A DNA stretch of 64,000 nt, taken from Cellulosimicrobium arenosum (GTDB lineage Bacteria; Actinomycetota; Actinomycetes; Actinomycetales; Cellulomonadaceae). The stretch is taken from contig NZ_JACYHB010000012.1 of assembly GCF_014837295.1 (NCBI RefSeq), forward strand, positions 1 through 64,000, given 5' to 3'. Positions 8,980-12,327 of the stretch are shown piece by piece (position 1 is the stretch's first letter; each line of letters opens with the position of its first letter). Both the position numbers and the translations under genes were made by a program. The notes below the pieces were generated by a model. It saw nothing but the letters and a program-made list of their open reading frames with translations. It had not been told where the DNA came from and did no database searches.

Positions 8980-9795
8980 GTGGCAGTGGAGCCGCAGGAT
9001 CCAGGTTCCCCCGCGTTCGAGTCCCGCCGGGCACGCCGCGAGGCCGAGGCCGGTCCTCGACGCCCCCGACGCCGGGCGGTGGACGTGCCCCGCCAGCACC
9101 GCTGGGCACCGCGGATGGCCGTCCTCGGCACCCTCGCCGTCGCCACGATCGCGATGCCGCTCTCCGCGGCCGGCCTGGACGGTGGTGTCCCCTCACCGTA
9201 CGAGCCCGAGACGGGCCCGGAAGGACCGAGCGCGCTCGACCTGGCCACCGCTCCCTCCACCGTCCCCGCGGTCTCGGAGGCGGTCGCCGCGGCGCCGCGG
9301 GTCGCGGGCCGCAGTGCCGCCGCCTCCCGGTCGTCGCTGCGCGAGCCGTTGCCCGGCTGCGACCCCGAGGTGCGGCCCACCGGCTCGAACGGCCAGCTGG
9401 ACCCGCACGGTCTGTGCGCACTGTGGCAGCCGGACTCCTACCTGCGGCCCGACGCGGCTGTCGCGCTCTCGGCGCTCAACGAGGCGTTCCGGGCGAACTT
9501 CGGCCGCGACCTGTGCCTCGTGTCGTCCTACCGCTCGCTGGACACCCAGGTCTCGCTCAAGGGCACGCGCGGCGCGTTCGCCGCCCGGCCGGGCACGTCG
9601 ATGCACGGGTGGGGCCTCGCGATCGACCTGTGCTCGAAGGAGACGGGTTCTCGCGAGGTGTACGACTGGATCAACCTGAACGGCCCGGTGTACGGCTGGG
9701 ACAACCCGGCGTGGGCCAAGCGCGGCGGTGTCGGCGCCTACGAGCCCTGGCACTTCGAGTACACCCAGGGCGTCGAGGAGATGGACGGGGCCTGA
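8980..9795 (+). CDS. exported M15-family D-alanyl-D-alanine carboxypeptidase
   Basis: 271-aa peptidoglycan peptidase of the VanY/M15 zinc family. An Arg-rich cytoplasmic N-terminus is followed by a single hydrophobic segment (about 46-67), so the protein is probably secreted or membrane-anchored with the enzyme outside. A low-complexity linker leads to the catalytic domain (about 150-265), which holds the zinc ligands in SMHGWGLAIDLC (His, Asp) and EPWHFEY (His). The GTG at 8980 opens the frame; the GTG at 8986 sits better behind GAGAGG and may be the true start. Monocistronic, with its own promoter. Confidence 0.88.
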   Translation: MAVEPQDPGSPAFESRRARREAEAGPRRPRRRAVDVPRQHRWAPRMAVLGTLAVATIAMPLSAAGLDGGVPSPYEPETGPEGPSALDLATAPSTVPAVSEAVAAAPRVAGRSAAASRSSLREPLPGCDPEVRPTGSNGQLDPHGLCALWQPDSYLRPDAAVALSALNEAFRANFGRDLCLVSSYRSLDTQVSLKGTRGAFAARPGTSMHGWGLAIDLCSKETGSREVYDWINLNGPVYGWDNPAWAKRGGVGAYEPWHFEYTQGVEEMDGA

Positions 9796-10425: not shown

Positions 10426-10473
10426 GCCTGCCACGGTAGCGGTCGGGCCGTCCGGCGGGGGCCGGAGCGCGCC

Positions 10474-10488
10474 GCTGCCGACAGCAGA
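10474..10488 (+). promoter_or_regulatory. upstream PopR-type box (degenerate)
   Basis: GCTGCC-GAC-AGCAGA keeps the 6-3-6 architecture of the box immediately downstream, with one substitution per arm relative to TCTGCC-N3-GGCAGA. The two boxes are directly adjacent. PopR of Streptomyces is reported to act through two such palindromes in front of clpP3-clpP4. Confidence 0.6.
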
Positions 10489-10505
10489 TCTGCCCTCGGC
10501 AGATC
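10487..10505 (+). promoter_or_regulatory. PopR-type operator of the clpP pair
   Basis: GATCTGCC-CTC-GGCAGATC is a perfect 8-bp inverted repeat about 40 bp before the first clpP start. Its core TCTGCC-N3-GGCAGA is identical to the operator I recall for PopR, the activator of the Streptomyces clpP3-clpP4 operon. The presence of a PopR-like gene just beyond the operon supports the assignment. Confidence 0.8.
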
Positions 10506-10544
10506 CGGCCCCGGACGGCGCTGCGGCCGGGCACGGTGGTGGGC

Positions 10545-11174
10545 ATGAGCGAGCACCCGAGTCCACAGCTGTTCTCCGAACGAGTACGACGCGAGCTGTA
10601 CGAGCAGCGCGTCCTCGTCCTCGACGGTCCCCTCGACGACGACAACGGGATGCTGCTGGCGACCCACCTGATCGCGCTCGCCGCCGAGGACCCTGCTGCC
10701 GACGTGTCGCTGTGGATCCACTCCCCGGGTGGCTCGGTACCGGCCATGCTGGCGATCCGCGACGTCGTCCGGATCGTCCCGTGCGACGTCTCCACCCTCG
10801 TGCTCGGGATCGCCTACAGCGCGGGTCAGTTCCTGCTGTCGTCCGGCACCCGGGGCAAGCGCCGTGCGCTGCCGCACTCGCGCGTGCTGATGCACCAGGG
10901 TTCGGCCGGGATCGGCGGGACCGCGGTCGACATCGAGCTGCAGGCGGGCGACCTGCGCCACACCCGGGACACGGTGCTCGGTCTGGTCGCCCAGGACACG
11001 GGGCAGCCCGTCGAGCGCATCCACGAGGACTCCTTGCACGATCGCTGGTACACGGCTCAGGAGGCGCTGGAGTACGGCTTCGTCGACTCGATCGTGCGGT
11101 CGTTCGACGACATCGCTCCGCGCCGACGCCGCCAGGTCAGTCTCAGCGCGACCGCCGGGCGGGCGATCGCATGA
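10545..11174 (+). CDS. accessory ClpP-family serine protease subunit (ClpP3-like)
   Basis: 209-aa ClpP peptidase. The catalytic triad can be read: S92 in GIAYSAGQFLL, H117 in RVLMHQ and D162 in IHEDSLHDRWY, followed by the usual ALEYGFVDSIV handle. There is no evident propeptide. The ATG at 10545 is chosen over GTG codons at 10536 and 10539. The stop overlaps the next clpP by 4 bp, so the two are co-translated and probably form a mixed two-ring complex. This resembles the stress-type clpP3-clpP4 operon of Streptomyces rather than the housekeeping clpP1-clpP2 pair, which normally lies next to tig/clpX and is not in this window. Confidence 0.92.
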   Translation: MSEHPSPQLFSERVRRELYEQRVLVLDGPLDDDNGMLLATHLIALAAEDPAADVSLWIHSPGGSVPAMLAIRDVVRIVPCDVSTLVLGIAYSAGQFLLSSGTRGKRRALPHSRVLMHQGSAGIGGTAVDIELQAGDLRHTRDTVLGLVAQDTGQPVERIHEDSLHDRWYTAQEALEYGFVDSIVRSFDDIAPRRRRQVSLSATAGRAIA

Positions 11175-11773
11175 GCACCTACACGATCCCGAGCGTCATC
11201 GTGCAGCACCCGCGCGGTGAGCGGGTCATGGACGTCTACTCGCAGCTGCTCACGGAGCGCATCATCTACCTCGGCACCGGAATCGACGCCGGCGTCGCCA
11301 ACTCCCTCGTCGCCCAGCTCCTCCACCTGGAGTCGGACGACCCCGAGCGGGACGTGCAGCTGTACATCAACTGCGAGGGCGGGGACCCGAGCGCGATGCT
11401 CGCCGTCTACGACACCATCCGCTACATCCGACCGCAGGTGGCGACGACCTGCGTCGGGCAGGCCGTCGCGGTCGGTGCCGTGCTCCTCGCGGCCGGCGCG
11501 GCGGGCAAGAGGGCCGCGCTCCCGCACACCCGGGTGGTCCTGCACCAGCCGGCCGCACAGGGTCGTGGGACCGTCCCGGACCTCATCCTGCAGGCCGACG
11601 AGGTCGTCCGCGTCCGCGCGGACATGGAAGGGATCCTCTCGCGGCACACGGGTCGGACCGTCGAGCGGCTCCGCGCCGACACGGACCACGACCGGGTATT
11701 CACCGCCGCGGCGGCACGGGAGTACGGCCTCCTCGACCACGTGCTCGAGGAGCGGGAAGCCGTACGGACCTGA
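11171..11773 (+). CDS. accessory ClpP-family subunit lacking the catalytic serine (ClpP4-like)
   Basis: 200-aa ClpP homologue, translationally coupled to the preceding gene. The family motif GQAASMGA reads GQAVAVGA here, so the serine position holds A100 (codon gcg at 11468-11470), whereas H125 (VVLHQP) and D170 (RADTDHDR) remain. The segment that forms the oxyanion region, normally SPGG, is CEGG. The fold and handle (REYGLLDHVLEE) look intact, so it is probably a non-catalytic structural partner, comparable in logic to cyanobacterial ClpR or proteasome-like scaffolding rings. Whether this substitution is frequent in ClpP4-like proteins I cannot tell from here. Confidence 0.92.
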   Translation: MSTYTIPSVIVQHPRGERVMDVYSQLLTERIIYLGTGIDAGVANSLVAQLLHLESDDPERDVQLYINCEGGDPSAMLAVYDTIRYIRPQVATTCVGQAVAVGAVLLAAGAAGKRAALPHTRVVLHQPAAQGRGTVPDLILQADEVVRVRADMEGILSRHTGRTVERLRADTDHDRVFTAAAAREYGLLDHVLEEREAVRT

Positions 11774-11787
11774 GCGGCCAGCCGGGC

Positions 11788-12165
11788 CTATGCGGCCAGG
11801 GCGTAGGCGCTGCGGCAGGTCGCGGCTCGCGCGCCGTCGACGTGCGAGGGCTGCAGGCTCTGGGCGACGCCGAGCGTGAGATCGACCAGCGTGACGTCCA
11901 GCGCACCGGCGACCGCTGCGATCATCTCGCTGGACGGCTCCTTGGTCCCCCGTTCCATCTCGGAGAGGTACTGCGGCGAGACCCCGGCCCGGCCCGCGGT
12001 CTCGGACAGGGTCTCGGCCCGCGCGTGGCGCAGGGCCCGCAGCTGGTCGCCGAGGACGTGTCGCCACAGCGGACCACGTTCTCGTCGCGCCGCCGCGCGG
12101 TCCCGGTCCGGCGCGGGCCGCAGTCCGTCGGGCCGGGGAGCAGGCGGGGCAATGTTCTCGGCCAT
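11788..12165 (-). CDS. popR: PopR-like XRE-family regulator of the accessory clpP operon
   Basis: 125-aa helix-turn-helix protein. The XRE/Cro domain spans about residues 38-98 (LRALRHARAETLSETAGRAGVSPQYLSEMERGTKEPSSEMIAAVAGAL). It ends in ...SAYALAA; a terminal Ala-Ala resembles the degron by which the housekeeping ClpP1 removes PopR in Streptomyces, so that the accessory clpP operon is only switched on when ClpP1/P2 fail. The gene converges on clpP with 14 bp between stops, and PopR-type palindromes lie upstream of both units, which suggests autoregulation. The symbol rests on operator, tail and context together. Confidence 0.85.
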   Translation of the reverse strand: MAENIAPPAPRPDGLRPAPDRDRAAARRERGPLWRHVLGDQLRALRHARAETLSETAGRAGVSPQYLSEMERGTKEPSSEMIAAVAGALDVTLVDLTLGVAQSLQPSHVDGARAATCRSAYALAA

Positions 12166-12203
12166 GCTGGATGGTAGGTCGGCGAACCGGTCGACCGCTC
12201 GGT

Positions 12204-12222
12204 GTTCTGCTCCCGGCAGAAC
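12204..12222 (-). promoter_or_regulatory. PopR-type operator in front of popR
   Basis: GTTCTGC-TCCCG-GCAGAAC is a perfect 7-bp inverted repeat 39 bp upstream of the popR start. Its core TCTGCT-CCC-GGCAGA differs by one base from the clpP operator, so the regulator probably controls its own gene. Confidence 0.7.
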
Positions 12223-12254
12223 GCTCTCCCCAGGGGAGACACCGCACAAGAAGG

Positions 12255-12327
12255 TGCCCTCGATAGGATTCGAACCTACGACCTTCTGCTCCGGAGGCAG
12301 ACGCTCTATCCACTGAGCTACGAGGGC
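12255..12327 (-). tRNA. tRNA-Arg (anticodon CCG)
   Basis: The minus strand folds as a complete 73-nt tRNA: acceptor arms GCCCTCG and CGAGGGC, discriminator A, a D-loop with AGCTCAGTGGATAGAGC, a 7-nt anticodon loop CTCCGGA on a TCTGC/GCAGA stem, and the T-arm GGTTCGAATCC. Anticodon CCG reads CGG arginine codons, common in this genome. CCA is not encoded. It stands between popR and argS, head-to-head with its own synthetase gene. Confidence 0.95.

Follow-up and report, generated by a model that had tools for sequence, protein, structure and literature searches.

A ClpP4-like subunit without the catalytic serine beside an intact ClpP3 in Cellulosimicrobium arenosum: a putative docking ring of a proposed conditional Clp protease

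What does a ClpP subunit do when alanine occupies the position of its nucleophilic serine, and the gene beside it encodes a ClpP with a complete catalytic triad? This question is raised by a pair of genes in the soil bacterium Cellulosimicrobium arenosum, located in the window analyzed here (the whole stretch of 64,000 nucleotides, positions 1 to 64,000 of contig NZ_JACYHB010000012.1). The two genes and the three codons concerned are as follows.

10545..11174, plus strand: clpP3, ClpP3-like catalytic subunit (P0002) of 209 residues; Pfam CLP_protease E 8.5e-51; Ser92-His117-Asp166 intact
11171..11773, plus strand: clpP4, ClpP4-like subunit (P0001) of 200 residues without the catalytic serine; Pfam CLP_protease E 4.3e-63
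11468..11470, plus strand: codon 100 of clpP4, GCG, alanine at the nucleophilic serine position (codon reading and alignment)
11543..11545, plus strand: codon 125 of clpP4, catalytic histidine retained (alignment)
11690..11692, plus strand: codon 174 of clpP4, catalytic aspartate retained (alignment)

The stop codon of clpP3 and the start codon of clpP4 overlap (ATGA). ClpP4 covers positions 2-181 of the 182 positions of the CLP_protease profile. When it is aligned to E. coli ClpP, A100, H125 and D174 correspond to Ser111, His136 and Asp185 (precursor numbering), and the motif at A100 reads VGQAVAVGAVLL compared to MGQAASMGAFLL in E. coli. ClpP4 therefore has A100, H125 and D174 in place of Ser-His-Asp. 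A first-pass annotation of this DNA had reported the alanine in the second ClpP, the survival of its His and Asp, and an intact S92 in the upstream partner, and all of these readings hold; ClpP3 also has His117 and Asp166. Two further ClpPs, both with full triads, are encoded on contig C9 of the C. arenosum genome. Upstream of the pair, at 8980-9795 of the window, lies a putative VanY-like D,D-carboxypeptidase gene with weak model matches.

It has to be asked whether A100 is real. That serine is the rule in ClpP is the sole point in favor of a pseudogene or a sequencing error. Against it, the P0001 frame is free of internal stops, and the ClpP4 of C. terreum (G016), an independent assembly, is 90% identical to P0001 and also has alanine at position 100. 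P0001 belongs to a clade of 113 distinct sequences with identity of at least 68.5%, in which position 100 is Ala in 100, Gly in 8, Ser in 4 and Asp in 1. Among the 111 distinct clade members for which both genes are available, 99 have an alanine codon there (GCG in 71, GCC in 27 and GCT in 1). The first-pass annotation allowed that resequencing might give a serine codon, and independent assemblies give alanine instead. In addition, purifying selection is similar on both subunits. The dN/dS between C. arenosum and C. terreum is 0.14 in ClpP3 and in ClpP4, and the medians over 4514 non-independent pairs are 0.20 for ClpP4 and 0.16 for ClpP3, which again argues against a pseudogene. Median pairwise identity over the 111 loci is 79% for ClpP4 and 82% for ClpP3. 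The chance of a pseudogene or a sequencing error is negligible, and independent genomes rule out both of these, and coincidence, as the cause of Ala100. The reading frames fetched from relatives are open over the ClpP domain. In-frame stops were noted in many of them; nearly all lie at residue 196-199, close to where the protein usually ends, and are read as the normal C-terminal stop.

The alanine has a patchy distribution near C. arenosum and a wide one beyond it. A ClpP3/ClpP4-type pair is found in 13 of 17 genomes of the genus, with Ala at position 100 in two (C. arenosum and G016) and Ser in 11, so that Ala is a minority state within the genus. The Ser-bearing ClpP4 of those 11 genomes is a different ClpP4, only 56-57% identical to P0001. 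The pair is missing in four of the 17 (G011, G013, G014 and G015), two of which are 83% and 75% complete. In the family, a ClpP4 at least 74% identical to P0001 occurs in 25 of 221 genomes, C. arenosum included, and all 25 have Ala-His-Asp. Named genomes were scanned as well, and the best 80 of 314 confirmed loci, C. terreum included, fall into 34 named genera and 14 named families. Ala stands at position 100 in 71 of these best 80, which represent 28 named genera (four of the 71 carry no genus name); their triads are Ala-His-Asp in 67 and Ala-Asp-Asp in four, all Glycomyces (L080, L104, L128 and L131), in which the His has been lost to Asp as well as the Ser. The other states at position 100 in the best 80 are Gly (4), Asp (1) and Ser (4). 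The ClpP3 partners of the same 80 have Ser-His-Asp in 78; of the remaining two, one (L118) is short with the same residues and the other (L137) is cut by a contig end.

By phylogeny, the two subunits group with different halves of the housekeeping protease. A FastTree phylogeny with E. coli ClpP as outgroup was built from all ClpP pieces with at least 150 aligned residues (498 entries), giving 431 distinct sequences; shorter pieces, such as the ClpP3 of L118, were excluded from the tree, the triad counts and the loss counts, and identical sequences were counted once. In this tree, 215 upstream genes (ClpP1 and ClpP3) form one clade with support 100, and 215 downstream genes (ClpP2 and ClpP4; for four, the partner was not readable) make up another with support 98, into which P0001 falls. 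The assignment to ClpP3/ClpP4 as opposed to ClpP1/ClpP2 is taken from the same tree, where support is 99 for 199 ClpP3 and 94 for 198 ClpP4, but 42 one step above ClpP3.

The loss of the triad is confined to one of these four groups. Intact triads are found in 16/16 distinct ClpP1, 17/17 ClpP2 and 199/199 ClpP3 sequences, compared to 49/198 for ClpP4, a share that leans to the P0001 clade, as similarity to P0001 largely decided which sequences were collected. The first-pass annotation had proposed such a count of serine loss across actinobacterial ClpP3/ClpP4 pairs, and the count shows a one-sided loss; its treatment of a single protein was too narrow, as the loss is a recurrent ClpP4 trait and, in the P0001 clade, extends to the oxyanion strand. 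In an evenly drawn sample of the class, 394 genomes were searched and all 105 that matched at E <=1e-64 were read. Nine of the 105 matches are ClpP2, and Ser-His-Asp is kept in 35 of the 96 ClpP4, a fraction that refers to matches above a cut-off which also favors ClpP4 near P0001. The triad is complete in all 95 readable ClpP3 partners of this sample; the remaining partner is truncated by a contig end. Triad loss is not needed for the system, since the triad is kept in the 49 distinct ClpP4 above and in 11 of the 13 genus genomes with the pair.

Triad loss in ClpP4 is evidently more than one event. On a tree of 123 ClpP4 and 5 ClpP2, from which the triad columns and their neighbors had been removed, the minimum number of changes is 18 for position 100, 4 for the His and 12 for the Asp. 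Scored as intact or broken, the triad requires at least 10 changes, or 7 when the four main-clade sequences with Ser are set aside. Shuffled labels need 39 changes on average, which indicates that triad states follow descent. Placing every broken ClpP4 in a single clade is rejected (p-AU 9e-42; 79 rows against 45, with the four Ser-bearing clade members omitted), the group in this test having been named after the tree had been viewed. About nine separate losses would be counted if Ser has not been regained outside the main clade. The routes appear to differ. In one, Asp was lost first and Ser then became Glu, in a clade mostly of one family code; in another, His became Gly, and one member of that group matches Streptomyces fungicidicus at 87% of bases; in further losses Ser was replaced by Gly, Trp, Phe or Ala. 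Among named replicons, the ClpP4 of S. fungicidicus (L266) has Ser, Gly and Asp, that of a Tsukamurella plasmid (L267) has Ala, His and Asp, and that of a Prescottella equi plasmid (L268) has Gly, His and Gln, each beside an intact partner. Glu for Ser is seen in 11 ClpP4 of one genus code (L187, L190, L194, L198, L200, L202, L204, L207, L210, L213 and L214), with the motif GQASETAAVLL (GQAGETAAVLL in L210). In these eleven, Asn or His replaces Asp, and ten have a Ser one residue early.

In the P0001 clade, a second part of the active site has changed along with the serine.

11372..11389, plus strand: oxyanion strand C68-E69-G-G-D72-P73 replacing SPGGS (conservation in 113 distinct clade members)

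Conservation over the 113 members is 97% for C68, 92% for E69, 99% for D72 and 96% for P73, together with 96% for H125 and 100% for both D174 and R175. Outside the clade, the 45 intact ClpP4 sequences have Ser at 68, Pro at 69 and Ser or Ala at 72, and none was found among them with C68, E69 or D72. P73 occurs in 4 of the 49 intact ClpP4, and all four Ser-bearing clade members have it. These four (L074, L134, L135 and L139, from Frigoribacterium, Pseudonocardia, Microbacterium and Aeromicrobium) keep C-x-GGDP despite Ser at 100, so the serine alone may not make them proteases. The first-pass annotation also raised the possibility that another serine supplies the nucleophile; no serine newly conserved with the loss was seen in ClpP4, S24 being present in all ClpP4 and S74 standing where intact ClpP4 mostly have Thr.

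Such strong conservation might mean that the active site of the clade has been converted and has not simply decayed, with C68-E69-G-G-D72-P73, H125 and D174 forming a new site in the chamber, a proposal that is decidedly doubtful. It is just as doubtful that the converted site would have an activity based on the cysteine, or would act as a sensor, by binding a metal or a peptide, and so inform the docking ring about the cutting ring. As a full alternative to a docking role, a new catalytic or ligand-binding center built from Cys68, Glu69, Asp72, His125 and Asp174 is very unlikely. The conservation of C68, E69, D72, H125, D174 and R175 at 92-100% and the absence of the first three from the 45 intact sequences speak for it; against it, Asp replaces His125 in 4 of the 113 members (Glycomyces where named), other ClpP4 lineages have lost triad residues without the CEGGDP motif, and P73 replaces a residue whose backbone amide pairs with substrate (E. 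coli Ile70). In known ClpPs, the Asp and Arg equivalent to D174 and R175 take part in ring-ring contacts, and such contacts may hold these two residues conserved in the clade. The conserved His125 and Asp174 are otherwise unexplained by a pure docking ring, unless they are structural. A structure prediction for P0001 from 42 clade sequences has a mean pLDDT of 63, too weak for use.

The reading that is probably correct is that the pair encodes an asymmetric backup Clp protease, with ClpP3 as the cutting subunit and ClpP4 as the one that docks the unfoldase. It is the ClpP2 face to which the ATPases bind in M. tuberculosis and Streptomyces, and an N-loop with Pro and a hydrophobic patch are reported to be involved (PMC4416901, PMC9765437). 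A ClpP2-type N-loop with Pro is found in 196/198 ClpP4, P0001 itself included, and in 13/17 ClpP2, 0/16 ClpP1 and 0/199 ClpP3 (the frame upstream of the domain included). Judged by this loop, the subunit without the triad is the one predicted to keep the docking side. The patch is less discriminating. Tyr65 is present in 196/198 ClpP4, 45/199 ClpP3 and 15/16 ClpP1, an aromatic residue or His occupies the third patch position in 198/198, 20/199 and 15/16, respectively, and position 63 is aromatic in 15/16 ClpP1; P0001 has Y65 and Y85, with Q63 where E. coli has Tyr74. As ClpP1, which is not the docking ring, has the aromatic patch too, the patch does not decide docking. The first-pass annotation had offered a gate or a chaperone-docking ring, as opposed to a protease, as the role of the second subunit. 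Comparison supports the docking ring, on the ClpP2 lineage, the N-loop, the rebuilt groove and the ClpP3 triads (199/199).

ClpP4 might instead enter mixed rings with ClpP3, where it would tune how many sites are active and have no particular part in docking. Plastid ClpR is an established case of inactive subunits within mixed rings (PMC7966870), and the patch that fails to separate the two lineages also fits this arrangement. However, the N-loop is divided between the two subunits, present in ClpP4 and lacking in ClpP3, and actinobacterial ClpP1P2, the closest characterized relatives, are described as separate homoheptameric rings (PMC9067928, PMC8182300). Mixed rings are considered unlikely. 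Another arrangement, considered quite unlikely, is that ClpP4 does not work with ClpP3 only but joins ClpP1 or ClpP2 of the housekeeping protease, where it would modulate ClpP2 or take its place. This would suit a subunit of the ClpP2 lineage, and it has a parallel in ClpP-ADEP, the sixth ClpP of a Streptomyces strain, which affects complexes of ClpP1 and, together with ClpP2, makes up an active complex (PMC12607617). The overlap of clpP3 and clpP4 argues against it, as does the ClpP3 gene adjoining ClpP4 in 95 of the 96 class-sample loci, the last being cut by a contig end. The operon suggests a partnership of ClpP4 with the active ClpP3.

The proposed division of labor resembles that of Mycobacterium and Streptomyces ClpP1P2, in which ClpP1 is the cutting ring and ClpP2 the docking ring (PMC9765437, PMC9067928). 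Only ClpP1 activity is reported to be essential in M. tuberculosis, where ClpP2 is the docking ring (PMC9067928; PMC4416901), and a strain with ClpP2 S110A grows (PMC9067928). In Streptomyces, ClpP2 S131A gives full activity and ClpP2 docks the ATPases (PMC9765437). The difference is that ClpP2 keeps its triad (17/17 distinct sequences), whereas several ClpP4 lineages no longer have an intact one. In cyanobacteria, plastids and apicoplasts, an active ClpP is likewise accompanied by a ClpP homolog without a working triad, ClpR, whose inactivity is established for the first two (PMC7966870). ClpP4 groups with actinobacterial ClpP2 on the tree above, which was composed without ClpR sequences, and its descent may be separate from that of ClpR. 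An inactive actinobacterial ClpP subunit is, as an idea, already in print: one sentence in PMC9067928 mentions several ClpP alleles, one without critical residues, in N. asteroides, S. coelicolor and L. interrogans, and of the 121 Clp-like proteins in a 2008 survey, 21 are counted as inactive homologs (PMC2605481). In the literature searched on inactive actinobacterial ClpP4, with Viala 2000/2002 and Gominet 2011 outside the search, neither the repeated one-sided loss nor CEGGDP nor the cassette described below was found. The ClpP4 lineages would be natural, repeatedly arisen examples of the cut/dock division that has been engineered in mycobacterial and Streptomyces ClpP1P2. That related partners have lost the cutting site several times suggests a docking platform rather than a blade.

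The genes around the pair suggest when such a protease would be made.

10443..12252, no strand assigned: three-gene cassette of 1.8 kb (box, clpP3, clpP4, popR, box), from blastn of the site; borders approximate
10489..10503, no strand assigned: PopR-box-like palindrome TCTGCC-CTC-GGCAGA upstream of clpP3; exact match
11788..12165, minus strand: popR, PopR-type HTH regulator (P0003), C-terminus ...SAYALAA, convergent with clpP4
12206..12220, no strand assigned: second PopR-box-like palindrome, upstream of popR; 1 mismatch
12253..12327, minus strand: tRNA-Arg (CCG) at the cassette edge (ARAGORN)

PopR is a paralog of ClgR. The best NCBIfam model for P0003 is that of ClgR (NF041677), with 64 bits, below the cut-off of 170; the best score of this model elsewhere in the C. 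arenosum genome, 121.6 bits, falls short as well, and none of 14 control genomes reaches the cut-off. P0003 is an HTH gene that adjoins clpP3clpP4, converges with it and ends in an Ala-Ala tail (YALAA). A convergent relative of the regulator lies downstream in 171 of the 192 ClpP4 loci with room for it, with the tail LAA in 158 of the 171; it was not found beside the other 21 of the 192.

The PopR-box-like palindrome TCTGCC-N3-GGCAGA occurs twice in the window with at most one mismatch. The expectation is 0.17, and two or more copies appear in 1 of 100 shuffles. When two mismatches are allowed, 176/199 loci have it in the 250 bases that precede the clpP3 domain, compared to about 3.7 in shuffles; when one is allowed, 98/199 do. 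Within two mismatches it is found in 0/199 clpP4 coding stretches. The signal before popR is weaker, with 54/166 loci within two mismatches compared to about 4.8 in shuffles.

Work on Streptomyces and Mycobacterium provides the analogy by which these elements may be joined. In S. lividans, ClpP1 and ClpP2 are needed for PopR degradation, and PopR is regarded as the driver of clpP3clpP4 (PMC9765437). The mScarlet substrate with which the mycobacterial Clp protease was tested carries YALAA as its tag (PMC9067928). By this analogy, the clpP3clpP4 locus would encode a conditional peptidase under a PopR-type activator. While ClpP1P2 is working, the regulator would be degraded via its YALAA tail; when ClpP1P2 fails, the regulator would accumulate, bind the palindromes and switch the cassette on. 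All cutting sites would then come from ClpP3, of the ClpP1 lineage. ClpP4, of the ClpP2 lineage, would have lost its peptidase function and is predicted to form the ring onto which ClpX or ClpC docks. The putative ClpP3/ClpP4 core would thus be asymmetric, with one docking side and one cutting ring. The same analogy underlies the assignment of who docks whom, as well as the degradation of the regulator and the activation of the cassette.

The cassette resembles the ClpP3/ClpP4 system of Streptomyces with PopR, as seen in S. fungicidicus, which likewise has a two-gene operon, a convergent HTH regulator with an LAA tail, an exact TCTGCC-N3-GGCAGA upstream and a ClpP4 without one triad residue (Gly for His). 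In C. arenosum, however, it is the Ser and not the His that is lost, the oxyanion strand reads CEGGDP, and the cassette is sporadic within the genus and lies beside tRNA-Arg. It occupies this site in 2 of 17 genus genomes (C. arenosum and G016). In all 15 others, blastn places the upstream gene and the tRNA-Arg about 40 to 140 bases apart. Matches to the upstream gene end at 10426-10455 and matches to tRNA-Arg start at 12244-12253. Eleven of the 15 genomes without the cassette carry a Ser-bearing pair elsewhere, in G003 some 230 kb from the site. Horizontal gain of the cassette is likely, with loss in the other genomes as the alternative. Being small and self-contained, the cassette makes the role of ClpP4 and of ClpR-like subunits testable.

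A dedicated second unfoldase for the pair was considered and rejected, since neither clpX gene lies beside clpP3clpP4 in G003, G007 and G012, and a second clpX piece is present in G015, which lacks the pair. Two separate N-terminal clpX pieces are present in 14 of the 17 genus genomes, and in five of these they are two full genes. The clpX genes of C. arenosum lie on contigs C9 (3-437) and C32 (3-458), at loci L256 and L257, where contig ends cut both at the same place, and the two share an identical stretch at the break. In the genus, one clpX adjoins clpP1P2 wherever its surroundings are visible.
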